Part shown: positions 14,494 through 42,038 of the stretch, in pieces
Position numbering within the stretch: position 1 is the stretch's first letter
Layout of the letters: every line of letters begins with the position of its first letter
Assembly (NCBI RefSeq): GCF_016862555.1
Contig: NZ_BONE01000067.1
Coordinates: 1-42,038, forward strand
Length of the DNA stretch: 42,038 nt
Direction of reading: 5' to 3'
Source of the DNA: Asanoa siamensis
Lineage (GTDB): Bacteria > Actinomycetota > Actinomycetes > Mycobacteriales > Micromonosporaceae
Notes under the pieces: model-generated
The model's database searches: none
What the model saw: the letters and a program-made list of their open reading frames with translations, nothing else
Told to the model about the DNA's origin: nothing
Position numbers and translations under genes: made by a program

Positions 14494-15453
14494 ATGGCGG
14501 TCCTGGAAACAACGGCACGCGAGCAGCGGCCACCGCGCGAAGCGGTCCGGCGGCGCCGTGCGGCCGGCTTCACCTCGCCGGCCCATCGCGGCGACGCCCG
14601 GCTCGCCTGGGTGCTCATCGCGCCGGCGCTGATCGGGTTCCTGGTCTTCGCGGCCTATCCGACCGTGCGCGGCATCTACCTGAGCTTCACCGACTTCGCC
14701 GTGCTGAGCCCGCCCGAGTGGATCGGCCTCGACAACTACACGCACCTGCTGCACGACGAGGTCTTCTGGTCGGCGCTCGGTGTGACCGTCTACTTCGTCG
14801 TGTTGTCGGTGAGCATCAGCCTCGTGGTCTCCATCGTCACGGCCGCGGTGCTGCACCGGCTGACCTCCTCGACGGTGATCCGCGGCCTGATCATCCTGCC
14901 GTTCCTCATCTCCGCGGTCGTCGCCGGCACCGTCTGGTCCTGGATGCTCGACACCCAGCTCGGCATCGTCAACATCGTCATCAAGGCGCTCGGCGGCGAC
15001 GGCATCCAGTTCCTGACCTCGCGCGGCTGGGCGATCCCGTCGATCGCGCTGATCAGCGTCTGGAAGCAGATGGGCTACACGTCCATCATCATCTTCGCCG
15101 GGCTGCAGACGATCCCGCCGACCATCTACGAGGCGGGCCGGGTCGACGGCGCGAGCGAGCTGAAGATGTTCCAGCGGCTCACGTTGCCGCTGCTGCGCCC
15201 GATCCTCGCGCTCGTGGTCGTCCTCAACGTCATCGGCGCGTTCCAGGTCTTCGACATCGTCCAGGTGACCACCAAGGGCGGCCCGGCCAACGCCTCCAAC
15301 GTGCTGCAGATGTACATCTACAGCAAGGCGTTCGGGCAGTTCGACTTCGGGTACGCGGCCGCGATGTCGCTGTCGCTCTTCGTGATCCTGATAGCCATCA
15401 CCTTCCTGCAGATGCGCCTGCTGCGGGCCAACGAATCGGACACCAACGCATGA
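14494..15453 (+). CDS. CUT1 sugar ABC transporter permease (MalF/UgpA type)
   Basis: This 319-residue inner-membrane protein has six predicted hydrophobic segments (WVLIAPALIGFLVFAAYP is the first) and the EAA loop EAGRVDGASELKMFQRLTLP, which docks the ATPase. The N-terminus has an Arg-rich cytoplasmic tail. It forms half of the oligosaccharide channel. ATG 14494 lacks a strong ribosome binding site but fits the family start. Its stop overlaps the next permease as ATGA. No ATPase gene is present in the locus; actinomycete CUT1 systems commonly borrow a shared MsiK-type ATPase encoded elsewhere. Confidence 0.93.
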   Translation: MAVLETTAREQRPPREAVRRRRAAGFTSPAHRGDARLAWVLIAPALIGFLVFAAYPTVRGIYLSFTDFAVLSPPEWIGLDNYTHLLHDEVFWSALGVTVYFVVLSVSISLVVSIVTAAVLHRLTSSTVIRGLIILPFLISAVVAGTVWSWMLDTQLGIVNIVIKALGGDGIQFLTSRGWAIPSIALISVWKQMGYTSIIIFAGLQTIPPTIYEAGRVDGASELKMFQRLTLPLLRPILALVVVLNVIGAFQVFDIVQVTTKGGPANASNVLQMYIYSKAFGQFDFGYAAAMSLSLFVILIAITFLQMRLLRANESDTNA

Positions 15454-16340
15454 CGCCGCGCCGTCGCACGTTGCGCATCGGCCGCACCGCCGCCTGGACC
15501 TACCTCGTCGCTGTGCTGTTCGTGACGATCTTCCCGTTCTACTGGATCCTGCGGACCGCGCTGTCCGACAACTACGCCCTGAGCGCGAACCCCGCCTCGA
15601 TCCTGCCGGTCGGCTTCACCTGGGGACCGTTCCAGCGCGTGCTGGGTCTGGCCACGACCGAGCAGTCGATCGCCGAGGGCGGCTCGGGCGCGTCCATCTC
15701 ACTGGGCCACTATCTGGTCAACTCCATCGTGTACGCATCGGTCTCGACCGGCCTCATCGTCTTCTTCTCGACCCTCGCCGCGTACGCCTTCGCCCGCCTG
15801 CACTGGCGCGGCCGGGACTTCATGTTCAGCCTGTTCCTCACCGCGCTGATGGTGCCCGGCATCCTCACGCTGCTGCCGAACTTCGTGCTGGTGAAGGAGC
15901 TCGGGCTGCTCAACACGTACGCGGGCCTGATCCTGCCCGGCGCCCTCTTCTCCGCCTTCAACATCTTCTTCCTCCGCCAGTTCATGCTGGGCCTGTCGAC
16001 GGAGATCGAGGAGGCCGCGCTGCTCGACGGCGCCGGCAAGCTGCGGGTGCTGTTCGGCATCACGCTGCCGATGACGAGCGGGCCGATCGTGACACTGTCC
16101 ATTCTGGGCTTCATCGGCATGTGGAACGACTACTTCTGGCCGCTGCTGGCCACGAGCGACGACTCGGTGCAGCCGTTGACGCTGGCGCTGGCCGTGTTCA
16201 AGCAGTCCTCGCCGCAGGCCCAGCCCGACTGGGCGGGCCTGATGGCCGCCACGCTCGTCGCCGCGCTGCCGATGCTGGTGCTGTTCATGGCGTTCGGCAA
16301 GCGGATCGTCAACTCCATCGGCTTCTCGGGGATCAAGTGA
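15450..16340 (+). CDS. CUT1 sugar ABC transporter permease (MalG/UgpE type)
   Basis: This 296-residue partner permease opens with WTYLVAVLFVTIFPFYWILR, a typical MalG first span. It carries the EAA loop EIEEAALLDGAGKLRVLFG followed by ITLPMTSGP and ends with the usual MAFGKRIVNSIGFSGIK. A somewhat long periplasmic loop (residues about 40-80, with TTEQSIAEGGSGASI) follows the first span. The start ATG 15450 overlaps the MalF-type stop. Its own stop overlaps the GTG of the glycosidase gene (GTGA), tying transport to hydrolysis. Confidence 0.93.
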   Translation: MTPRRRTLRIGRTAAWTYLVAVLFVTIFPFYWILRTALSDNYALSANPASILPVGFTWGPFQRVLGLATTEQSIAEGGSGASISLGHYLVNSIVYASVSTGLIVFFSTLAAYAFARLHWRGRDFMFSLFLTALMVPGILTLLPNFVLVKELGLLNTYAGLILPGALFSAFNIFFLRQFMLGLSTEIEEAALLDGAGKLRVLFGITLPMTSGPIVTLSILGFIGMWNDYFWPLLATSDDSVQPLTLALAVFKQSSPQAQPDWAGLMAATLVAALPMLVLFMAFGKRIVNSIGFSGIK

Positions 16341-28417: not shown

Positions 28418-29566
28418 ATGCGGGCGGTCGTGGTCGGGGGCGGGATCGGCGGACTGGTCACGGCGCTGGCGCTGCGCCGGGTCGGCGTGGAGGTGCGGGT
28501 CTTCGAGCAGGCCGCGGTCGTCGGTACGGCGGGTGCGGGGATCCAACTGGCGCCGAACGCGACCCGGATCCTCGCGTCGCTCGGGCTGCTCGGGTCGGTG
28601 CGGCAGGTGGCGGTCGCGCCGACCTCGTTCGAGTTCCGGCGGTGGGACGACGGGCGGCTGCTGTCCGCGACGCCCCTCGGTCCGGCGGTGCTCTCCGCGT
28701 ACGGCGCGCCGTACCTGCACGTGCACCGGGGTGACCTGGTCGCCCTGCTGGCCGGGGCGGTGCCCGTCGAGGCCGGCGCCCGCTGCGTGGACGTGTCGCC
28801 CGACGGGGAGGTCGTCCTCGCCGACGGGCGGCGGGAGCGGGCGGACCTGGTGGTGGGCGCGGACGGCATCCACTCGGTGGTGCGGCGGTCCATCCTCGGC
28901 GCGGCCGACGCGCGGTTCACCGGCCACGTCGCCTACCGCGGCCTGATCCCGGCCGACCGGGTGGCGGGGCTGCCGGTTGCCCGGACCGCGACCGTACGGA
29001 TGGGCCCGGGGCGCCACTGCGTCCACTATTTCGTGTCGTCGGGCCGGTTGCTCAACGTCGTCTGCGTGGTCGAGGAGTCGCGCTGGACGCGGGAGTCGTG
29101 GACGGACGTCGGTGATCCTCTGGAGGTGAGGGCCGCGTTCGCGGGCTGGGACCCGGTGGTGTCGGCCCTGGCGGGCGCGCTGTCGGCGCCGCTGAAGTGG
29201 GCGCTGTTCGACCGGGAGCCGATTCCACGGTGGAGCAAGGACGCGGTGACGCTGCTCGGCGACGCCTGCCACCCGATGCTGCCGTACGGCGCGCAGGGCG
29301 CGGCACAGGCGATCGAGGACGCCTTCGTGCTGGCGGCGTGCGTGGCCGACTCCTCGGACGTGCCGGCGGCGCTGGCCCGCTACGAGGCGCTGCGGCACGA
29401 CCGCACGGCCCGGGTGCAGGACCTGTCCCGCGGCAACGCGACGCGCTTCCACCTGCCGGACGGCCCGGCGCAACAGGCCCGCGACACGGCGATCGCGTCG
29501 ACCAACGGCCTGTCCGCGGACCTGGACTGGCTCTACGGCTTCGACCCGCTCACCGGCCGGGCGTGA
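28418..29566 (+). CDS. FAD-dependent monooxygenase (PHBH/salicylate hydroxylase type)
   Basis: This 382-residue flavoprotein of the group A hydroxylases has the dinucleotide site VVGGGIGGL (about 5-13) with Glu 30 ending the second strand (VRVFEQA), the second FAD motif VVGADGIHSVVR (about 144-155) and the third, LLGDACHPMLPYGAQGA (about 278-294). Such enzymes use NAD(P)H and O2 to hydroxylate aromatic or polyketide substrates. There is no membrane segment. ATG 28418 directly follows a GTG in the same frame (28415); neither has a strong ribosome binding site, so coupling to the methyltransferase transcript is likely. Substrate unknown. Confidence 0.92.
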   Translation: MRAVVVGGGIGGLVTALALRRVGVEVRVFEQAAVVGTAGAGIQLAPNATRILASLGLLGSVRQVAVAPTSFEFRRWDDGRLLSATPLGPAVLSAYGAPYLHVHRGDLVALLAGAVPVEAGARCVDVSPDGEVVLADGRRERADLVVGADGIHSVVRRSILGAADARFTGHVAYRGLIPADRVAGLPVARTATVRMGPGRHCVHYFVSSGRLLNVVCVVEESRWTRESWTDVGDPLEVRAAFAGWDPVVSALAGALSAPLKWALFDREPIPRWSKDAVTLLGDACHPMLPYGAQGAAQAIEDAFVLAACVADSSDVPAALARYEALRHDRTARVQDLSRGNATRFHLPDGPAQQARDTAIASTNGLSADLDWLYGFDPLTGRA

Positions 29567-30106: not shown

Positions 30107-31135
30107 TCAGGCCGCGGCGAGGCCGGCCGCCGTCGGTGGGAGCCCACCCCAGGAGCCGATCGCCGACAGGGTGCCGTTGGCGCCGACCGACCAGCCGAAG
30201 ACCTGCCGGGAGTCGGCGTCCAGCGCGTAGAGGAAGCGACCGTCGGCGCTGAGGTCCTCGTCGCGCAGCCCGGAGTGCCCGTCGATGCCGACCGCGGCCG
30301 CCGGGTCGTCGAGGGTGAGGCTCCCGTCGTCGCCGATGGCGTACCGCGAGACGCCGCTGTCGGCGAAGTTCGTCGTGTAGAGGTAGCGGTTGTCGTCGGA
30401 CACGACCGCCCAGCAGATCTCGCTGCGTCCATTGGGGACCGACGCGGAGACGGGCGTGACCTCGTCGCCCGCGGTCGCGTACGAGGACGTCGCCGCCCTG
30501 CCCTCGGCCGCGCCGAACGCCTCGACCACCAGCAGCGTGCCGTCGTCGGTGAAGGCGAAGCCGTACGGGGTCCGCCCGGAGGACGAACGGGTCCGCGGCT
30601 CACCGAGTCGACCGTCGGCGCCGACCGGGTAGCTGACGATCGCGTCCGCCATCCGCTGCGTGACCACCAGTGTCGAGCCGTCAGGGCTGAACCCCACCTG
30701 GGCCGGATCGGACCCGGCCTCCAGCGGACGCGTCGACCCGGTGATCGGCTCGAGGCCGCCGGCACCCAGCCGTAGCCCGCACACCGACGGGTCGCCGGTG
30801 TTGAGCACGTACACCAGCCCGTCGTGCTCGGTGACGCTCTTGGGCGCCGACCCGACCGCGGTCGTACCCATCGCCTCGGGCCCGTCGCCGTCGACCGCGA
30901 AGAGTGAGACGTCGTCGCTGCCCGCGTCGGTGACCAGGAGGCGCCGCCCGTCGCCTGTCAACGCCAGGGAGCCCTGTGACGCGAGATGCGCGGTCCCGTC
31001 GCCGGCGCCACCGGTCGCGATCGGGCCGGGTCCCCACAGCACGCCGTTCGGACTCGTCCGGAAACACAGGAGTTGGTTGCCGTCACGCTGGTTGCTCTGG
31101 ACGTAGACGGCACAGGGTTCCGAATCAGGGCGCAT
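30107..31135 (-). CDS. Lactonase-family seven-bladed beta-propeller protein
   Basis: A 342-residue protein built of repeated propeller blades: SQGSLALTGDGRRLLVTDAG, QVGFSPDGSTLVVTQRMADA, YGFAFTDDGTLLVVEAFGAA, CWAVVSDDNRYLYTTNFADS and DLSADGRFLYALDADSRQVF. These are the WD-like strands of the 6-phosphogluconolactonase-type (Lactonase) family, whose members include true lactonases and many proteins of unknown activity. I prefer ATG 31135, where GGGGGAGG lies 8 nt upstream, over a start 69 nt earlier with no site. No convincing signal peptide is visible with either start. It is convergent with the VOC gene. Confidence 0.8.
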   Translation of the reverse strand: MRPDSEPCAVYVQSNQRDGNQLLCFRTSPNGVLWGPGPIATGGAGDGTAHLASQGSLALTGDGRRLLVTDAGSDDVSLFAVDGDGPEAMGTTAVGSAPKSVTEHDGLVYVLNTGDPSVCGLRLGAGGLEPITGSTRPLEAGSDPAQVGFSPDGSTLVVTQRMADAIVSYPVGADGRLGEPRTRSSSGRTPYGFAFTDDGTLLVVEAFGAAEGRAATSSYATAGDEVTPVSASVPNGRSEICWAVVSDDNRYLYTTNFADSGVSRYAIGDDGSLTLDDPAAAVGIDGHSGLRDEDLSADGRFLYALDADSRQVFGWSVGANGTLSAIGSWGGLPPTAAGLAAA

Positions 31136-31199
31136 CTCGAGAACCTCCCCCGGCAACAGGTTCAAACACTCGCCATACCCGTTGCCGGCGGCACCAACC

Positions 31200-31354
31200 A
31201 CCAATCGGGAACCCGACCGTCGTCAGCACGGGACTTCTACTCGCGCGTGCTCGGCGGCACCCCAGACAAGGCCGGTACCACGGTCGTCGACCACGAGCCC
31301 GGCGACACGACCTCGATCTTCCTGAACCTGCGCCTGGAGGACCTATCGGGCTGA
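31200..31354 (+). pseudogene. VOC-family gene fragment (N-terminal piece)
   Basis: In one plus frame the text SSARDFYSRVLGGTPDKAG, then TTVVDHEPGDTTSIFLNLRL, reads like the first third of a VOC/glyoxalase protein (DFYSRVLGG is the classical helix), ending at a stop at 31354. No start codon with a ribosome binding site and no second half are present nearby. It appears to be the remnant of a deleted gene. The upstream limit is approximate. Confidence 0.4.
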
Positions 31355-33105: not shown

Positions 33106-33520
33106 TCCACCGCAGGACCGAGCTCAGCCCGCGAACCCAGACAACACGGGCCTCGGCCACACCCGAGCAAAGGGCGGGCATGGCGGTAGAGCTTGCGGCG
33201 CCCGCTCATCACCATGCTCGAATGCACCGTTCTCGGTATGAGAGTGCGTTGTCCGGCTAGGCGTAGCGGCATGAAGGGTCGTTTCTCACCGCCACAGACC
33301 AAGCCAGCGAAGCCATATGCGGCCGCGGACCAACCTGCCGCACCCGTTCGAGGCTCGGCGAGGCCGCCGAGCATTCGGACCTGCCCCATGACCGGCTGCA
33401 AGCGGCGCACTTGCAGCAATTGCCAGCCGGTCCGCCGCGCAGCGGCGCCACGTCGAGGTCGTGCGCCGGGACGCAGCGGGATCCGGACGGCCATTGCAGT
33501 GGTCAGACGCTGCGAGCGGG
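33106..33520. other. Intergenic DNA with no supported gene
   Basis: Several frames are open on both strands, but their translations are Arg/Pro/Cys-rich and carry no recognisable motif, no ribosome binding site and no consistent codon preference. I find no inverted repeats typical of an insertion sequence. The stretch separates the membrane protein gene from the VOC remnant. Confidence 0.45.
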
Positions 33521-33842
33521 CGTGACACGGGCACGCTGGAGTCGCTCGGAATTGCTCCCGGCTACCGTGCTGACGGTGTCGCCGAGTATTGGTATCCGGA
33601 TCAAGACACCGTCGCTGTCCTTGGAACGTGCGGAGTCAGCGGCGACTGCGACCAAGGCATCGCACCTGGCGTTCGCGGCTAGCAGCCGGGCGGCGGTAGA
33701 CGCCTTCCACGCCGCCGCCGTGGCAGCGGGGCGCACGAGCCGACACGCTCCGAGGTTTCGGAGTCAGTACCGTGCCTACTGCGCGTTCGTCAACGATCCC
33801 GATGGCAACAACATCGAGGCCGTTCACAAGGAGGTCCAGTGA
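33521..33842 (+). pseudogene. VOC-family gene remnant, frameshifted
   Basis: In one frame LESLGIAPGYRADGVAEYWY (33530-33589) matches the middle of a VOC protein, where these proteins usually read GYGxDGxPDFW. The C-terminal half continues in another frame as SHLAFAASSRAAVDAFHAAA and YCAFVNDPDGNNIEAVHKEV, with DPDGNNIEAV being the classical end. The frame changes between about 33620 and 33655, and the N-terminal beta-alpha unit with its start codon is not recognisable. It is therefore a decayed gene rather than a short protein. It lies at the edge of the gene-poor junction before the Wadjet operon. Confidence 0.6.
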
Positions 33843-34344: not shown

Positions 34345-35655
34345 TTACTGCGGTGGGTGCCCTGCCATGAGGTCAGAGAGGAGCGCCTCAATCAGGCTCT
34401 CCTCGTATGCCGCTTGGCCGCGCTCGTCCATGGCGGCTCGAAGTGCCGGATCCCACGGTGTGTCGGGAACGGCGTCGTGGCCTAGCCGGACTCGGTCATC
34501 GGCTGGCGCGGTCGCAAGACTGGCGAGGTAGTCGGCTGGGGCCATTCGCCACGGTCGGGAGGCTGGTACTCCTCTGAGTAGCGCGTTGACGTGTCGTAGT
34601 CCCGCCTGGTCGAAGTCGGCCCGGACGGCGATTCGCCATCCGGTTTCTGCGAGCCGGTTGATGGCCGAGATTTCGAGCGTCGAGGGGGTCCCGACGGTGC
34701 ACAGCAAGCGGAGGCCGGTAGCGGGCGGGTTCTGGGCGGCGAGTCGGTCGGCGGCTGCGGTGACGACAGACGGGTTCTCGGTGACGAATATCCACTGGCC
34801 GTGTTTGGTCGGTGTTGGCCATCCGCACTTGGCGAGTTCCCTGGGCGGCAGCGTAACTACTGCTTCCGGTGGCAGGAACCAGCCGACGGGATGGATGCCG
34901 AGCGTGAGGAGGCCGCCGGTCAGGTCGTCGCAGTCGACGCCGACCGCTGCCCAGGCGGCCCGCGGCGGCAGGCCAGTCGTCATCGCACCGGCCGCAGCGA
35001 GGATTGACAAGACCAGGCCGGGTAGCGGACCAGCGTCCAGGGCGTGCGGAAAGCGAGTGACGGTATCTGCGAGGCGACGGCGGTCGAGTCGCTCGCCGTC
35101 GGCCGGCAATGCTGCGATGACCGCTGCGGCTTGGTCGATGAGGGCCGTCCCGTCTGGCGCTGCCGACAATCGGCCGATCCATCCGTTGCGTTGAAGAATC
35201 GGCCAGATGGCGTCGAGGTCGAGCTGGACGACGGCTGCTTCTTCGAGCCGGTCGAACGAGTCGGTCATGCGCTCTCGCAGCCGCGCGACGGTGTCGCGAC
35301 GCTGTGCCATTTCACGGATCCGCTCGCCGAGCCGGCGTTCGGCGGTGTGGGCGGCGATCATGCCCGGCGTGAGCCGTACGTCGTGGGCATGCAGGCGAGT
35401 GGTCAGATCCGTGAGGTTGATTCGGATGCGCTGATCGGCGCGGGGGCTTCGGCCGCCGAGCAGTCCGAGCACGGCCGCGCGCTGCGACGGATTGCCTGGT
35501 GCGGTGGCCGTGGCGAACCCGGTGGTGAGATCGTGGTCGCCGCGTCGGTCCCCGATGTCGGCGAGTTGTCGCCAGAACCAGTCGATGTGGGCACCACGAA
35601 CTGGCGTGAAGTCGATGCTGTCGCATTCGTTTGTGCACCACGGGCACGGAGTCAC
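34345..35655 (-). CDS. jetD: Wadjet JetD-like nuclease subunit (TIGR02679, DUF3323/DUF2399)
   Basis: This 436-residue protein is the last gene of the operon. The N-terminal half (about 1-230, DUF3323-like) is helical; the C-terminal DUF2399 half holds a Toprim-like site: Glu in WIFVTENPSVV (about 293) and the DxD in RADFDQAGLRHV (about 347 and 349), preceded by LLCTVGTPSTLEISA. In characterised Wadjet systems JetD is the Toprim nuclease that cuts circular plasmid DNA once the SMC motor JetABC has scanned it. GTG 35655 overlaps the jetC stop as GTGA. The N-terminus shows a Cys cluster CPWCTNEC (residues about 4-11), possibly a metal site. The sequence is less GC-rich than the sugar operons. 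Confidence 0.88.
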   Translation of the reverse strand: MTPCPWCTNECDSIDFTPVRGAHIDWFWRQLADIGDRRGDHDLTTGFATATAPGNPSQRAAVLGLLGGRSPRADQRIRINLTDLTTRLHAHDVRLTPGMIAAHTAERRLGERIREMAQRRDTVARLRERMTDSFDRLEEAAVVQLDLDAIWPILQRNGWIGRLSAAPDGTALIDQAAAVIAALPADGERLDRRRLADTVTRFPHALDAGPLPGLVLSILAAAGAMTTGLPPRAAWAAVGVDCDDLTGGLLTLGIHPVGWFLPPEAVVTLPPRELAKCGWPTPTKHGQWIFVTENPSVVTAAADRLAAQNPPATGLRLLCTVGTPSTLEISAINRLAETGWRIAVRADFDQAGLRHVNALLRGVPASRPWRMAPADYLASLATAPADDRVRLGHDAVPDTPWDPALRAAMDERGQAAYEESLIEALLSDLMAGHPPQ

Positions 35656-38600
35656 GCGGGCTCCCACGACACGTCGTCGGGAAGCGGGTGCAGCCCGCGG
35701 ACGAGCATTGGGAAGGCGACCACGGTGGTGTCCGGTCCGGCTTCCAGGTCCCAAGCGTCGACTCCGTCCCACGCTCCGGGCGCCCCGTCCCACAAATAGC
35801 TCGTGCAGATGAGGTCCAGGTCGAGTTCGGCGATGTAGCGGGCGAGTCCTTCCCGGCCGCGTTCGTCGACCTCGGCTGGTACCTCATCGAGGGCAGCGAG
35901 ACGCAGCCCGGCCAGATCGAGCTGGTCGTAGAAGGCGGCGACCGCGGCGAGCATCGGCGCGAGGACGACGAGACGCCGTTCGCCGCCAGACAGTCCTGTC
36001 TTCGACGTCCAGCGGCTGATCTGCCCGCCCGGGCGCACGATCTCGTACGAGATGTCGAGCCACTTGCGTACGTCGACGGCGCTGGTAAGTCGTTCGGTCA
36101 TGGTGGCGCCGTCGGCGGCGTCGATGAGGGCTCGGAGCGCGTCGCCGACCTCGGCCTGCTGGGCTGCGGTCAGTGTAGATTCCTTGCAGGCCAGCCGGTG
36201 GACGGTGAGTTCGGCGGCGCTGAGGTCCTTCACCAGGGCCTTGCTGATGCGCACGCCAACGCCTGACGAGGCAGCGGCCTTCTGCATCTTGCGGTTGACG
36301 CCCTTGATCCAGTCTTCGATGCTCACCCATGCGGTGCCGATCGCCAGCGGCAGACGGCCGATGACGAACTCGCGCAGTGCGGACTCCTCGGCCTGGTTGA
36401 GCGCGGCCTGGGCGCGGTCCCGGAGTCGGCGGCCGGCCTCGGCCGCTGCGGGCGGCGGGTAGGCGGCTCCGTCGTGGGTCAGGACGTAGGTCTCGAGGCC
36501 GTCGCGGGGATCGTCGAGATCGAGTGTCCACAGGCCAGCGAGCTCCGCGCGGCAGCTGTCGTACCGCTCTCGTAGCAGGCGGCGGCCAACCGAGCGGCGG
36601 CCCATCAATGCCTGCCGGACGAGGCCGACGACAGGGTCGTCCCGTTCCGCGTTCTCGATTGGCGGTAGTAGGACCGGTACCGGCTCGAACAACACTTCGG
36701 GCACGCCGGGCACATCAAGGAGGCTGCGTAGCGCTCGCCGCTCCGCAGCCACCGGCACCAGCGCAGCCTCGGTCTGCTGTACTGCGTGCTCTAGCCCCAG
36801 CTTCAAGCCATGCATCTTGTCGTGGGTGTCTCGTTCGTGGCGCTCGGCCCTGAGGATCTCGCCGGCCAACGCCCTGCGCTCGTTGACGGCTTCGGTGTGC
36901 TGGGCGATCGCCTCCGCGGCGTTGAGACCGACGGCGCGAACCAGGGCCTCGTGCTCTGCGGCGAGCTGCGCCGCCTGGTCTGCGGCCGCTACCGTGTGGG
37001 CGTGCTGCCCGGCGAGATCACCGGTTCGCTGCGCGTCATCGTCGGCTTCAGCGGTGAGTTCGCTGAGTCGCTGGCGGATTCGGCCGCCGAGCTTCGCCAA
37101 GGCCTCGCCAAGGCCTTTGGCTCGCTGGGCACCGTCATCGCGGAGGTGCGCCAGGTCGCCGACGTTGATAGGCAGACCGGTCGACCGGGTGCGCCGCTCC
37201 CACTCAAGGCGCAGGACTCGCGCGATCTCGGCTTGTTCCGCAGCCGCATCTGCCGTGTCCTCGGCCGCCTGGCGGAGTTCGGCGGCGCGTTTCGCTGCGG
37301 CCGACCGGGCGGCCTCGGCCCTGGTTGCCTCGGCGTAGGGCGGGAACGTACGCAGCGCGCCGACGATGCTGGTGGCGCCGTCCCGGTTCCGGGCGGCAAC
37401 CTCCCTCTGCCGGTCGGCCTCGCCGTCGAGCTCCGCTGCCTCGGCCTCGAGTTCCGCTGCCCGGGCGAGAGCCGCCGCGCGTCGCTGAGCAGCGCCGACG
37501 TACTGGGCGGAGGGAGTGGGTGCGTCCATCGACAGCGGCCGGCCGTACAAGGGCCCGGCGGAGAACGTTCCGTCCCGTCCGATCGCCAGGCAGGACGTCC
37601 CCGTGGCCGGGCCGGTGGTATCCCGCAAGGGTATGCGGCCGAGGATCTCCCGCGCGGTTGCCGCCAGCGGATGTGCTGCCTCAGCGATCAGCACCTCGGA
37701 GAGACCGGCTTCCGCCGACGTGCCTGCCAAGGCGTCGACATACCAGCGATCGGTGTGCGCGCCGTCCGTCGCCAGGGCTGCGCCGAGCAGGCCGCTGGCG
37801 GTCAGCGCAGTTTCGATGAGCGCCCGGGCCGATGGATCAGTGAACGCGGGCTGCCAGTCGATCGCATCGACGAACGCGGTGCCATCGGGCGCCGGGCCAG
37901 CCCAGGCCGGGCGCGGAACCGGGAGGAGCTCACCGCCACGGAGCTTCCGCGCCTCCGCCCGCTGCCGGTCTCGTTCAAGCTCCAGGTGCCGGATCGCGTC
38001 GAGGGTGACGCGATGCCGGTGACGCAGGACAGCGGCGGCGGACTCCCCGGTCAGTCGGACGAGGGCGGCGATGCCGTCGAGGCCGGCGAGGGCCTGCGCC
38101 GGTTCGTCCTGGGCCACTGCGTCAAGGTCGGGTCGCTGCCATGCGATTCGCTCGTCGTCGTTCGCGTCGAGGTGTTCGTCCTGGTGCGTCGTCTCGACGA
38201 CGAGGGCGATCGCGCGGTTGTTGCTGAACCACGTCTCGACGGCGTCGACGACCCGCCGAAGGGCCGACCGGCCCGCCCGTTCCGCCCGAGCCAGCCGCTG
38301 TTGCTCCTCGTCGGCGACTAGGACCGCGGTGCGTGCCGCTGCCGCCGCATCGCGCGCCGCGCCCTCGGCGCCGTCGGTTTCCCGCCGGTCGATCAGCGCA
38401 AGCGAAGCCGCGTTCGCTCGGGCCTGATGCTGCTGCGCGAGGGTGTTCCACGACTCGACGACACCGTCGATCCGGTCCTGGTCGACCTCGATGACGATTC
38501 CTGGCCCCGGATCGGCGGACGTGTCGGCGACCAGGTACGCCTGTCGTGGCCGCACGCGGTGGCGGAGCAGCGGTTGATCGGGCCGGGCGCGGCCGTCATA

Positions 38601-39836
38601 CCGGTCCGCGCCCGCGACGATCTCGTCGAGTTCGTCGGCGAGATTCTCGGCGTTCTTGCGCAGCATCTCGGCTCGGCGCCGGCTGCCGTCGACCTCGGAC
38701 CGGAATGCGGCGACCTCGGAGGCGGCGACCTTCTTCTCGGCCTCGACGCGGCCCTGGAGGTCGGTCAGGCGACCGGCAGCCTTATATTCGTCCGACTCCT
38801 CGAGCCCACGAATCGTCGCATCAAGGCTCTGGGCACGCCGCCGGAGCGCGCTGAGACTGGCGTCGGCCTCCGTGTGTGTCCGTTGGGCCGTCTGGAGGTT
38901 CCGCTCGAGGCCCTGCTGGGCCCGTTTGGCCTTCGCGGCATCGTTCATCGCCGTCACAACCGCGTTGTGCGCGGTGCCGACGACTTCGACCACGTGGCCG
39001 GTCCACGCGTCGGCGAAGCGGTCTAGGGCTGCTGCGGCGTCGCTGTCGCGTTGGAACGCCTCTCTGGTCGCTTCAGACTCGGCGAGTGCCTCGGCGGTGG
39101 CGCTGATGACGTCGTCGGATACGCCAGGCAGCGCGTCACGCAGTGCGTCGGCAGCGGCGCGGGGCGACACGTCGCCGAGCAGCGTGGGATTGCGGACCGC
39201 CCGGATGCGGTTTGCCAGCTCGAGCGGTTCACGATTGTCGGCGGCCCACATCCGGGTGGCAAGGTGTGCGATGTATGCGTCCTCGTCAGGGAAGACCGTG
39301 CCGCCAGCGCCAGTGATCGCATCGGTGAACTGTTCGGCAAAGAGGGCTGCCCGGTTCGGGCCATACAGTGGCACGTCCTGCAGCGGCACACCTGGTGTCA
39401 CGAACGGCGTGACCCGCACGGCAGGGGAGCCGCTTTCGCTGTAGAGCAGCCGGACGCCGTAGGAGTACCGGCCCTCGCCCGCCGGTGCGGCGACGGTCAA
39501 CCAGACATAGCCGCACCTGCGCTTATTGCCGTTAGATCCCTCCCGCATGAGCAGCGCCAGCGTCGTGGGCCGTGCCTTGCCCGCAGCCAACCGCTGCGGG
39601 TTCAAGTCGAGCAAGTAGGGCCACAGCGCCTCCAGCGCCGTGGTCTTGCCGGTGCCGTTCGGGCCGCGTAACAGTAGCCGGCCGCTGGGGGCTTCAAGGT
39701 GGAGGTCGCCATAGCGCCATACGTTGGCCAGGCCGGCGCCGACCAGCCGCCAACGAGTGGCGAACCGTTCGCGGTGGCCGGCCGGCTCGATCAGGTCCTC
39801 CCCGTCGAACAGCGCAAGTTCGTCAGGCAGTGCCAT
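35652..39836 (-). CDS. jetC: Wadjet JetC-like SMC/SbcC-family ATPase (TIGR02680)
   Basis: This very large protein (1394 residues) has an SMC-type layout. The N-terminal half-ATPase has RLLLRGPNGTGKTTALEALW (Walker A about 58-65). Long Glu/Arg/Ala-rich coiled-coil stretches follow (about 280-420, 460-570, 800-960 and 990-1080), with a hinge-like middle around 650-780. The C-terminal half has TGLSGGERRLVVLAPML (signature about 1281-1286) and LRLAALDEVPAEVDERGREG (Walker B Asp/Glu about 1317-1318). Such subunits form the DNA-translocating motor that recognises small circular DNA. Family length is about 1350, so this is complete. ATG 39836, with GGGGAGAG, overlaps the jetB end by 14 nt; the stop overlaps jetD by GTGA. 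Confidence 0.93.
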   Translation of the reverse strand: MALPDELALFDGEDLIEPAGHRERFATRWRLVGAGLANVWRYGDLHLEAPSGRLLLRGPNGTGKTTALEALWPYLLDLNPQRLAAGKARPTTLALLMREGSNGNKRRCGYVWLTVAAPAGEGRYSYGVRLLYSESGSPAVRVTPFVTPGVPLQDVPLYGPNRAALFAEQFTDAITGAGGTVFPDEDAYIAHLATRMWAADNREPLELANRIRAVRNPTLLGDVSPRAAADALRDALPGVSDDVISATAEALAESEATREAFQRDSDAAAALDRFADAWTGHVVEVVGTAHNAVVTAMNDAAKAKRAQQGLERNLQTAQRTHTEADASLSALRRRAQSLDATIRGLEESDEYKAAGRLTDLQGRVEAEKKVAASEVAAFRSEVDGSRRRAEMLRKNAENLADELDEIVAGADRYDGRARPDQPLLRHRVRPRQAYLVADTSADPGPGIVIEVDQDRIDGVVESWNTLAQQHQARANAASLALIDRRETDGAEGAARDAAAAARTAVLVADEEQQRLARAERAGRSALRRVVDAVETWFSNNRAIALVVETTHQDEHLDANDDERIAWQRPDLDAVAQDEPAQALAGLDGIAALVRLTGESAAAVLRHRHRVTLDAIRHLELERDRQRAEARKLRGGELLPVPRPAWAGPAPDGTAFVDAIDWQPAFTDPSARALIETALTASGLLGAALATDGAHTDRWYVDALAGTSAEAGLSEVLIAEAAHPLAATAREILGRIPLRDTTGPATGTSCLAIGRDGTFSAGPLYGRPLSMDAPTPSAQYVGAAQRRAAALARAAELEAEAAELDGEADRQREVAARNRDGATSIVGALRTFPPYAEATRAEAARSAAAKRAAELRQAAEDTADAAAEQAEIARVLRLEWERRTRSTGLPINVGDLAHLRDDGAQRAKGLGEALAKLGGRIRQRLSELTAEADDDAQRTGDLAGQHAHTVAAADQAAQLAAEHEALVRAVGLNAAEAIAQHTEAVNERRALAGEILRAERHERDTHDKMHGLKLGLEHAVQQTEAALVPVAAERRALRSLLDVPGVPEVLFEPVPVLLPPIENAERDDPVVGLVRQALMGRRSVGRRLLRERYDSCRAELAGLWTLDLDDPRDGLETYVLTHDGAAYPPPAAAEAGRRLRDRAQAALNQAEESALREFVIGRLPLAIGTAWVSIEDWIKGVNRKMQKAAASSGVGVRISKALVKDLSAAELTVHRLACKESTLTAAQQAEVGDALRALIDAADGATMTERLTSAVDVRKWLDISYEIVRPGGQISRWTSKTGLSGGERRLVVLAPMLAAVAAFYDQLDLAGLRLAALDEVPAEVDERGREGLARYIAELDLDLICTSYLWDGAPGAWDGVDAWDLEAGPDTTVVAFPMLVRGLHPLPDDVSWEPA

Positions 39837-41037
39837 AACTCTCCCCTCGGCGCGTCCGACCCTTCTGCGGCTCTGGCGGTTGCTCCCATCGTCCGGTCGC
39901 AGGCGCGAACCACCACGTCTCGTCCTCGATCCGGAGTAGGTTGGCCCCGCTCAGGAGCCTGGCGACCTCGGCGGCCAGGCCGGGTAGGTTGCCGACGTGC
40001 TCGGCCGACCAGCCCTGGGTCGCATACCGCTCCGCAAGCATCGCCAACTGCTCGGCGATCCGATCGCGAGGCACGCCGCGCCAGCTCTGCCGGTCACCGT
40101 CGACGGTGCCGTCGGCATTGGCCATGTCGCACAGCAGCAAGCCGGCATGGGCCACTGTTCCGCCGCTCGGGAATGGGCGATCGCCGAGCTCGCTGCGGGA
40201 TCGGAATGCTTCATCCGGCAGGACGAACGCCGCGCCTTCGGCTCGGCGCTCCAGGTGCAGCCCGAACGCTTCCGCCAGCGGCAGGCCGTCATCGCCGCGG
40301 ACCCGTCGCGACAACCAGTCCGCCTCGTCCGGGTCCAGTTCACCGGCGTAGACCGCGGTGTCGTCAACGAGCCGACGTCGCATGCGTCGCGCCGGCTCTG
40401 GCTCCCGTTCCACCATTTCCAGCCATCCTGCGGGGTCGCCGACGGGGTCGGCCACGGCGAAGTTCGCGATCACGTGCACCAGCCGATGGTGATGGATCGC
40501 CAGCAGGACAGGCGGGTCGTCGTTGCGCAGGAACTCGTTCACGTCGCCGTCGAGGCTCTCGACCACCCCCCGGTCGTCAAGCATCCGCAACGCGGTGAGG
40601 ATCGCGTGCCGCTCCGGCCGATCGTCCGGCGCCGCAACCCCGGCCTCAGCAGCAGCGGTACGTGCCGCTGCGACCAGCTGGCCGATGCTGACCCGCGGTG
40701 GCATCGACTCGGCGGCGGCGACCAGCAGAAAGAACCATGAGCAGGCCAGCGGAGTCGGGCCTCCTGCCGCCCAGGCTTCACGCCGAACCGGCGGGGACTT
40801 GCGCAGACGCACGAAGTCTCGGTCTAGGACCAGCACCCATCCGAGCCGTGAGAGCACGTCGCGGATGGCCCTCTCGTTCCGGCGCACTGTTGCGATGGCG
40901 CCGTCATCCCGCCCGGCAATGAGCCACGGCCGCACCATGAGTAGGCGCAGGATGGTTGCGGTCTCCGCCGCGGCCTCGGGCGCTTGGGCGCCGCGCTGCC
41001 GCCAAGCTTTGGCGCCCGACGATCTCACGCTGGTCAC
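39823..41037 (-). CDS. jetB: Wadjet JetB-like subunit (TIGR02678, DUF2398)
   Basis: This protein of 404 residues matches the DUF2398/TIGR02678 family: TILRLLMVRPWLIAGRDDGA and LSRLGWVLVLDRDFVRLRKS near the N-terminus (winged-helix-like), CSWFFLLVAAAESM, ILTALRMLDDRGVVESLDGD, and NLLRIEDETWWFAPATGRWE near the end. In Wadjet complexes this position is the KITE-type accessory subunit that binds the kleisin and the SMC heads. GTG 41037 overlaps the jetA stop (GTGA); the longer frame upstream is only a shadow of jetA. The overlap with jetC (14 nt) shows translational coupling. Confidence 0.88.
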   Translation of the reverse strand: MTSVRSSGAKAWRQRGAQAPEAAAETATILRLLMVRPWLIAGRDDGAIATVRRNERAIRDVLSRLGWVLVLDRDFVRLRKSPPVRREAWAAGGPTPLACSWFFLLVAAAESMPPRVSIGQLVAAARTAAAEAGVAAPDDRPERHAILTALRMLDDRGVVESLDGDVNEFLRNDDPPVLLAIHHHRLVHVIANFAVADPVGDPAGWLEMVEREPEPARRMRRRLVDDTAVYAGELDPDEADWLSRRVRGDDGLPLAEAFGLHLERRAEGAAFVLPDEAFRSRSELGDRPFPSGGTVAHAGLLLCDMANADGTVDGDRQSWRGVPRDRIAEQLAMLAERYATQGWSAEHVGNLPGLAAEVARLLSGANLLRIEDETWWFAPATGRWEQPPEPQKGRTRRGESYGTA

Positions 41038-42038
41038 GCCGCGCCTCGGACCGGCTCGAGGATAGCGACGGCGCGATGTTGCGGATCTGGGGTCGCCTGG
41101 CGTGGCGCTGAAATCCACTGTCCGGGTTGGTGGAAGATCGGCAGTCGTCCGGGCAGCAGGACGCGCCAGGTCGGTCCGCGAACCACGCCGACGTCGGCAC
41201 CTACGTGGAAGAGGGTACAGGACAGTCCATCTCGTGTGCCGGTACGACGGTCGGTTGTACCGGGTGTCAGACCGACCCGCGCGGCGGCCATCAGCGACGC
41301 GAGCGCCGCACCCGCGGCCCGGACCGACAGTAGCTGACCGGGAGTGGCTGCTAGGACCTCCTCGATCGCCACGGCATGCTCGGCCAGCCTCCGTTGCCGT
41401 GCAGCCTGTACCGCCGCTCGGGCGGCGGAATCGTCGCGGGCGGCTGGTGCTCGGCCCCGCGCGCCGGTTCGGCCTGTCGTGCGCAGCAGCTCCGGCACGT
41501 CCACCGCTGGCCCGCCCCGCCAGGTTGGATTGCTCGCAAGTTCTGTGTCGTCGGCCTCGCCGTACAGCTTGCGCCATGGATGGTCGCCGGTAGCTGCCTG
41601 CAGGATCGCCGTGCCGTACCGGTCGTCGAGGCACGCCCGGGCCAGGAGCAGCGCCCGTGTCCGGCCGGTGGCGTAGCCCGCAGAGGTGTGCAGCCGTCGC
41701 AGGTTTGCGTGCATACTTGGTAGCGCCCGTACCAGCCGCAGCGCGAACCGGCTGGAGCGTCCGGTATGCGGGTCACACCAGGCGGCCAAGCCCTCCCAGT
41801 CGGCCACCCGGCCGCCCTTGGATGCGGTCAGGGCACCCCGTTCGATGAGGGCCCGTGCCTGCGATTCGGCCACCGCGACCCCGGCGAGAGTTTCGAAGTG
41901 CGGACGCAGGTGTCGATGGAGGATGTCGAAGGCCCGGTGAGCGCCGCGCTCCAACTCGCCGGCGACGTGCGTCGCGTAGTCCACGAGAAGACCCTTGAGC
42001 TCGGCGGTCGACTCCCGGTCCAGGTCGAACCGGTCGGC
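41034..42038 (-). CDS. jetA: Wadjet JetA-like subunit (TIGR02677, DUF2397), N-terminus outside window
   Basis: The visible 334 residues are the C-terminal part of a DUF2397/TIGR02677 protein; the frame is open to the window edge. Typical text is DYATHVAGELERGAHRAFDI, ALIERGALTASKGGRVADWE, WCDPHTGRSSRFALRLVRAL, AGYATGRTRALLLARACLDD and, near the end, LFHVGADVGVVRGPTWRVLL. Members are about 480-500 residues, so roughly a third is missing to the right. JetA is the kleisin-like bridging subunit of the Wadjet motor. It is the first gene seen of the operon and overlaps jetB by 4 nt. Any promoter lies outside the window. Confidence 0.85.
   Translation of the reverse strand, partial: ADRFDLDRESTAELKGLLVDYATHVAGELERGAHRAFDILHRHLRPHFETLAGVAVAESQARALIERGALTASKGGRVADWEGLAAWCDPHTGRSSRFALRLVRALPSMHANLRRLHTSAGYATGRTRALLLARACLDDRYGTAILQAATGDHPWRKLYGEADDTELASNPTWRGGPAVDVPELLRTTGRTGARGRAPAARDDSAARAAVQAARQRRLAEHAVAIEEVLAATPGQLLSVRAAGAALASLMAAARVGLTPGTTDRRTGTRDGLSCTLFHVGADVGVVRGPTWRVLLPGRLPIFHQPGQWISAPRQATPDPQHRAVAILEPVRGAA

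Follow-up and report, generated by a model that had tools for sequence, protein, structure and literature searches.

Does the operon at one end of contig C67 of the Asanoa siamensis assembly encode a working Wadjet system, or what is left of one? The window, meaning the whole stretch of DNA that was analyzed, is the entire contig, 42,038 bases, and it ends inside jetA, the kleisin gene. JetABC is described as extruding circular DNA to completion, whereupon JetD cuts (PMC10586767, PMC12647877). All four subunits are reported to be required for suppression of plasmid transformation in B. subtilis (PMC10586767), and nvJET, the type II complex from Neobacillus vireti, is described as cleaving naked circular DNA (PMC12647877). 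Wadjet has been reported in 42% of actinobacterial genomes (PMC10482375), and loss of a clostridial Wadjet has been linked to better plasmid uptake (PMC12287153). Taken alone, C67 would credit the strain with a working Wadjet; across the genome, the kleisin gene is seen to be interrupted by an insertion sequence (IS). With a probability of about 0.88, we take the locus to be the remnant (jetA'-jetB-jetC-jetD) of a type II Wadjet acquired by horizontal transfer, with jetA broken by an IS5-family element and the operon most likely inactive.

Gene content and class of the operon

The Wadjet locus comprises four overlapping open reading frames (ORFs) on the minus strand, at positions 34345-42038 in the ORF list, where the earlier note on this DNA had placed them.

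34345-35655, minus strand: jetD, nuclease with DUF3323 and DUF2399 Toprim, 436 aa, open ORF; the GTG start is set from the GTGA overlap with the jetC stop
35611-35655, minus strand: N-terminal CxxCxxxCxxxD segment of JetD, residues 1-15 (C4, C7, C11, D15)
35652-39836, minus strand: jetC, SMC-like ATPase, TIGR02680, 1394 aa, open ORF
39823-41037, minus strand: jetB, KITE protein, DUF2398, 404 aa, open ORF; the start is set from the GTGA overlap with the jetA stop
41034-42038, minus strand: jetA, C-terminal part only, kleisin, DUF2397; frame open to the contig end

The overlap is GTGA at both jetA/jetB and jetC/jetD, and it extends over 14 bases at jetB/jetC, as in a translationally coupled operon. 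PADLOC matched the genes, in the order A-B-C-D, to the profiles JetA2 (PDLC00538, positions 188-494, E 3.5e-138, for the part on C67), JetB2 (PDLC00548, E 6.6e-154), JetC2 (PDLC00549, 1411.6 bits), and JetD2 (PDLC00557, E 1.6e-65). With the Pfam matches, this order and these profiles identify a known system, a type II Wadjet; the earlier note had recognized the class and left the type open. The Pfam matches, to DUF2397, DUF2398, the SbcC/RAD50-like Walker B family, and DUF3323 with DUF2399, all lay above the curated cut-offs, which bears out the DUF families that had been read from the letters. The four models TIGR02677-TIGR02680, proposed at the same time as a check, were indeed the best NCBIfam families, but all four scores fell below the curated cut-offs (38/166, 91/125, 312/463, and 144/196 bits), and the operon is thus an outlying branch of these models. 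By descent, on the PADLOC labels, the C67 operon belongs to type II Wadjet; in function it is probably defective.

The structures 9qe0 and 9qe1 in the PDB, labelled JetA, JetB, and JetC, are presumably those of nvJET. These three proteins belong to families related to those of the C67 operon but are distant in sequence: phmmer gave E 2.8e-17 for JetC (9qe0_A) and E 0.011 for JetB (9qe0_D), and the match of JetA (9qe0_E) with the C67 JetA profile was weak (E 0.2), below a chance-like match. A search by sequence found no JetD of nvJET in the PDB.

The ATPase motifs of JetC are those of an SMC-type protein. Walker A (GPNGTGKTT) is identical in nine of ten relatives, the signature LSGGERR in eight of the nine relatives covering the region (L052 reads VSTGEAR), and Walker B (LDEVP) in 9/9. 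In JetD, the Toprim catalytic acids E293 and D347xD349 are invariant across all 11 aligned sequences, so that Walker A, the LSGGE signature, Walker B, and the Toprim residues are as intact as first described. Between JetC and its counterparts in L043 and L045 (Paractinoplanes, see below), identity is 66-92% in the heads but drops to 30-56% in the middle. Exchange of the hinge or an arm as a module was considered and rejected, as the middle of JetC is also of low identity in the other non-close pairs printed; its sequence reads as ordinary coiled-coil divergence.

Two halves of jetA and an insertion sequence

Of jetA, the window holds just the last 334 codons. Searching the entire genome for DUF2397 gave three places above the cut-off, on contigs C51, C67, and C6. 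The profile is covered in full on C51; C67 covers its C-terminal half (172-459) and C6 its N-terminal half (2-168). The features at the break are as follows.

Within L012:1324-1989 (end of contig C6): N-terminal part of jetA, with the IS directly after it; limits approximate at the start codon
L012:1991-2921 (contig C6): IS of the IS5 family, 931 bp, directly after the N-terminal half of jetA and reaching the last bases of C6
42038 of the window, minus strand: IS site in jetA; a G that completes the CTAG whose CTA ends C6

A single JetA2 model (PDLC00538) is covered at 9-187 by the C6 piece and at 188-494 by the C67 piece. In 12 of the 13 relatives whose JetA has at least ∼50% identity across the C67 half, the C6 half (to residue 222) and the C67 half (from residue 1) align to directly adjacent codons; these 12 are 10 of the 11 relatives of a first comparison together with L050 and L051. 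In the thirteenth, L052, the halves overlap by 6 bases. JetA matches were present in 22 loci other than the strain's own, 11 of them in the first junction comparison and the other 11 examined after. Nine are distant (L034-L042, 24-32% identity) and speak neither for nor against the junction, which most of their alignments fail to reach cleanly; for L040, L041, and L042 the C6 half gave no match within E 1.

The IS ends are perfect 21-base inverted repeats. Its ORFs, in two frames, match DUF4096 (E 4.6e-30) and DDE_Tnp_1 (E 1.8e-17), as in an IS4/5-type DDE transposase, and have the orientation of the operon. CTAG stands on the left; on the right, CTA ends C6 and G starts C67, a target copy that rests on the inferred C6-C67 join. 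IS5 elements duplicate short targets of the CTAG kind, and the C6 element is like that family in its DDE transposase with DUF4096, its inverted ends, and its CTAG target. Related copies have 77% and 76% identity, matching bases 1-934 and 5-934 of 934, and no closer match than 77% was found among the 120 other genomes searched. CTAG flanks related copies on both sides in L071 and L072 (the right IS end of L072 being one base shorter) and on the right in L073, where the left end is not covered. Related copies also occur on actinomycete plasmids, where 5 of the 10 matches listed are annotated as IS5 family transposase. Further IS ends within the window were sought and rejected, with zero matches at up to 3 mismatches.

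The left IS junction lies inside C6, whereas the right end falls at the contig break, which no contig spans. From the codon adjacency, the shared PADLOC model, the split CTAG, and the synteny of the flanks described below, we infer that the two halves of jetA belong together and that C6 and C67 are physically continuous. The description of the operon as complete-looking in the earlier note therefore does not hold, since the other half of jetA is on C6 and separated by an IS; the integrity of jetA beyond the window, which that note had singled out as decisive, is lost in the assembly.

The assembly contains one copy of the IS at full identity, so the contig break by itself does not prove a repeat; it could be explained by repeat collapse or by a mixed population in which some cells lack the IS. 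If jetA were intact in most cells, the IS being a product of the assembly or present in a minority of the sequenced culture, the operon would be a working type II Wadjet. A mixed population would indeed produce the same break at the outer IS end and the same single copy, and jetB, jetC, and jetD are open and of lengths like those of relatives. We nevertheless consider this unlikely. The left junction runs without a break within C6 into 938 bases containing the complete IS, both perfect ends, and the CTAG target, as a genuine insertion would be, and the whole-genome DUF2397 search found no uninterrupted copy of C67-type jetA in the assembly.

Inactivation by an IS or otherwise has been described for other defense genes: ISBli2 in a putative abortive phage resistance gene in 4 of 7 genomes (PMC6579920), and the antiplasmid system apsAB, often inactivated in colonies that retain plasmid (PMC11096173). 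Our literature search, which left subscription titles mostly outside its reach, found no report of an IS-broken jetA or of a JetD metal motif; it likewise returned no papers treating both Wadjet and Actinoplanes and none naming at least two of the five DUF/TIGR families. A metagenome contig (L051:1717-2752) gave a match to the C67 half of jetA in two overlapping pieces in different frames, perhaps a frameshift, which might reflect a second case of a broken jetA or an error in the sequence.

Probable acquisition and loss of function, and a second Wadjet

The flank on C6 (L030:5607-12011) and the flank on C67 (window ∼28419-29551) adjoin and face each other in four of the five same-genus genomes, with spacings between the matches of 15 (G001), 831 (G003), 17 (G004), and 1165 bases (G005); in G004 the C6-flank match is shorter, only part matching there. 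In G002 the C6 flank alone is in place. Between the flank ends that lie 15 bases apart in G001, A. siamensis carries 2990 bases on C6 and a further 12487 on C67. C67-type JetA has no match in any of the five same-genus genomes, and none of ten relative loci has a nucleotide match of over 200 bases outside the operon. Among the closest relatives, JetA of Paractinoplanes lichenicola (L043) and P. deccanensis (L045) is 79% identical over the C67 half, with the gene order and JetD Cys motif of the C67 operon, and that of G037, from the same family, is 83% identical over this half, on a contig that ends inside jetC. Unlike in C67, jetA is uninterrupted in all three, and outside the operon they have no nucleotide match. 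The missing JetA in the five same-genus genomes, the absence of matches outside the operon, and the synteny of the flanks point to horizontal acquisition; the operon is probably an acquired segment into which the IS came later. An RNA or tRNA feature serving as an integration site in the window was rejected, as the window contains no tRNAs and no Rfam matches at gathering score.

This distribution also bears on the function of the operon. SMC, kleisin, and KITE subunits are common to condensins, and MksBEF has been described in chromosome organization (PMC10586767), so that the locus might encode a chromosome-organizing complex of that kind and not plasmid defense. We regard this as highly improbable: jetC is overlapped by the gene of a JetD nuclease whose Toprim site is intact, and the absence of C67-type JetA from the five same-genus genomes, like that of matches around the operon in the ten relative loci, is unlike a housekeeping complex.

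How an intact type II Wadjet would work can be outlined from published work on other Wadjets. JetABC would be a loop-extruding SMC motor drawing in small DNA circles, and would then trigger JetD, a Toprim nuclease of topoisomerase VI-A type, to cut them. In A. siamensis the IS sits inside jetA after a codon CTA, and the jetA frame on C6 continues for 22 codons into the IS before a stop. The product would be a fragment of ∼200 residues followed by 22 IS-coded residues, the cut falling after about residue 183-202 of 510-555 as numbered in relatives, for which we chose the JetA starts. The C-terminal half would be left without its normal start; a possible in-frame GTG lies at 41984, and a C-terminal fragment might be made from it. 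A whole kleisin gene, as a Wadjet requires, is absent from the locus. Assembly of the complex should depend on a complete kleisin to bridge the JetC heads, so the operon is most likely inactive. In all likelihood the kleisin gene has been knocked out naturally by the IS, with function apparently lost, and the open frames of jetB, jetC, and jetD fit an insertion that appears recent.

It is scarcely credible that the split jetA still works, its two fragments binding the two JetC heads and being held together by JetB: the C67 half does have an open frame with a possible start, and transcription into jetBCD is conceivable given the direction of the transposase, but the cut lies inside a strongly conserved block, not a variable linker (GAEDxLxxL/ADRFDLD in 9/9 relatives printed, the slash marking the cut; AAEDAIVAM/AERYDLD in L052), and the two JetA parts are contiguous at the cut point in the 13 relatives that could be aligned over both.

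A second type II Wadjet is present in the same genome, on contig C51 (L029, 6674-14885), in the gene order JetD, JetC, JetB, JetA (392, 1336, 442, and 565 aa, respectively). It shares the JetA2/B2/C2/D2 order with the C67 operon; the C51 operon looks whole, whereas the C67 jetA is broken. Its best PADLOC models for A, B, and C (PDLC00536/545/553, versus PDLC00538/548/549 on C67) place it in a different subgroup, and its JetD is without the Cys motif. The strain probably keeps one Wadjet, and a single-gene defect beside an apparently intact second copy offers a clean background for asking about redundancy of type II systems. A transposase-like ORF (15311-16225) lies just upstream of the C51 jetA, not inside it, and parts of it match the C6 IS at 69-76%.

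Several smaller features were observed around the C67 operon. On C6, on the other side of jetA, an ORF with a DUF4291 match (L030:12028-13326, E 3.2e-78) falls in the segment missing from the empty G001 site. Beside the end of jetD, the window contains a glyoxalase-like fragment at 33411-33842 (Pfam positions 52-120 of 121), possibly a gene remnant, and farther away, at 30107-31204, a lactonase-like ORF whose best Pfam stretch is 148-307 of 344, possibly truncated. Positions 33554-33646 are 95% identical to G000:C33:18935-19029, a small repeat near the operon.

The N-terminal cysteine cluster of JetD

The earlier note had also pointed to the JetD cysteines as deserving attention, and they proved to be conserved. 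C4, C7, C11, and D15 are invariant in the 11 aligned JetD sequences, as are W26, W28, and D36-R37-R38-G39-D40; a quirk of a single strain was thereby rejected. When 25 JetD loci were scanned, CxxCxxxC was found at the N terminus in 11 (42-62% identity to the C67 JetD), two of which, L047 and L076, share the jetD start exactly and may be one sequence, and was not found in 14 (29-37%), in several of which its absence is less certain because the alignment covers the C-terminal part only or, in L082 and L089, because the locus carries a stop. The motif precedes both the DUF3323 match (from ORF residue 102, JetD 56) and the stretch matched by the PADLOC JetD2 profile (from ORF residue 66, JetD 20).

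Judged from these alignments, the cluster is a conserved trait of the clade, and our guess is that it forms a putative metal site, zinc or iron-sulfur, at the JetD N terminus. It is possible, if on balance doubtful, that the branch carries an extra JetD module, made up of the CxxCxxxCxxxD metal site and the WxW...DRRGD block and lacking in other type II JetD proteins, which would gate the nuclease through coupling to JetABC or through redox or metal sensing and would define a mechanistically distinct type II subtype. The conserved Cys motif provides a testable handle on JetD control in this branch.

A search of the PDB by sequence gave no convincing match to a JetD-like solved structure. The AlphaFold2 model of JetD, built from 11 sequences, had a mean pLDDT of 89.5 and a pTM of 0.51. 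Foldseek identified as the best solved matches a nuclease from C. glutamicum (8b7f, E 2.3e-7), which we take to be MksG, as well as the type I JetD 7til and the topoisomerase VI-A structure 1d3y, with E values up to 2.5e-4; the TM-scores over the query were low (0.28-0.32 for the six best), and the matches support the predicted domain types of JetD, not the arrangement of its domains. The three structures (7til, 8b7f, and 1d3y) share 11-17% identity with JetD.
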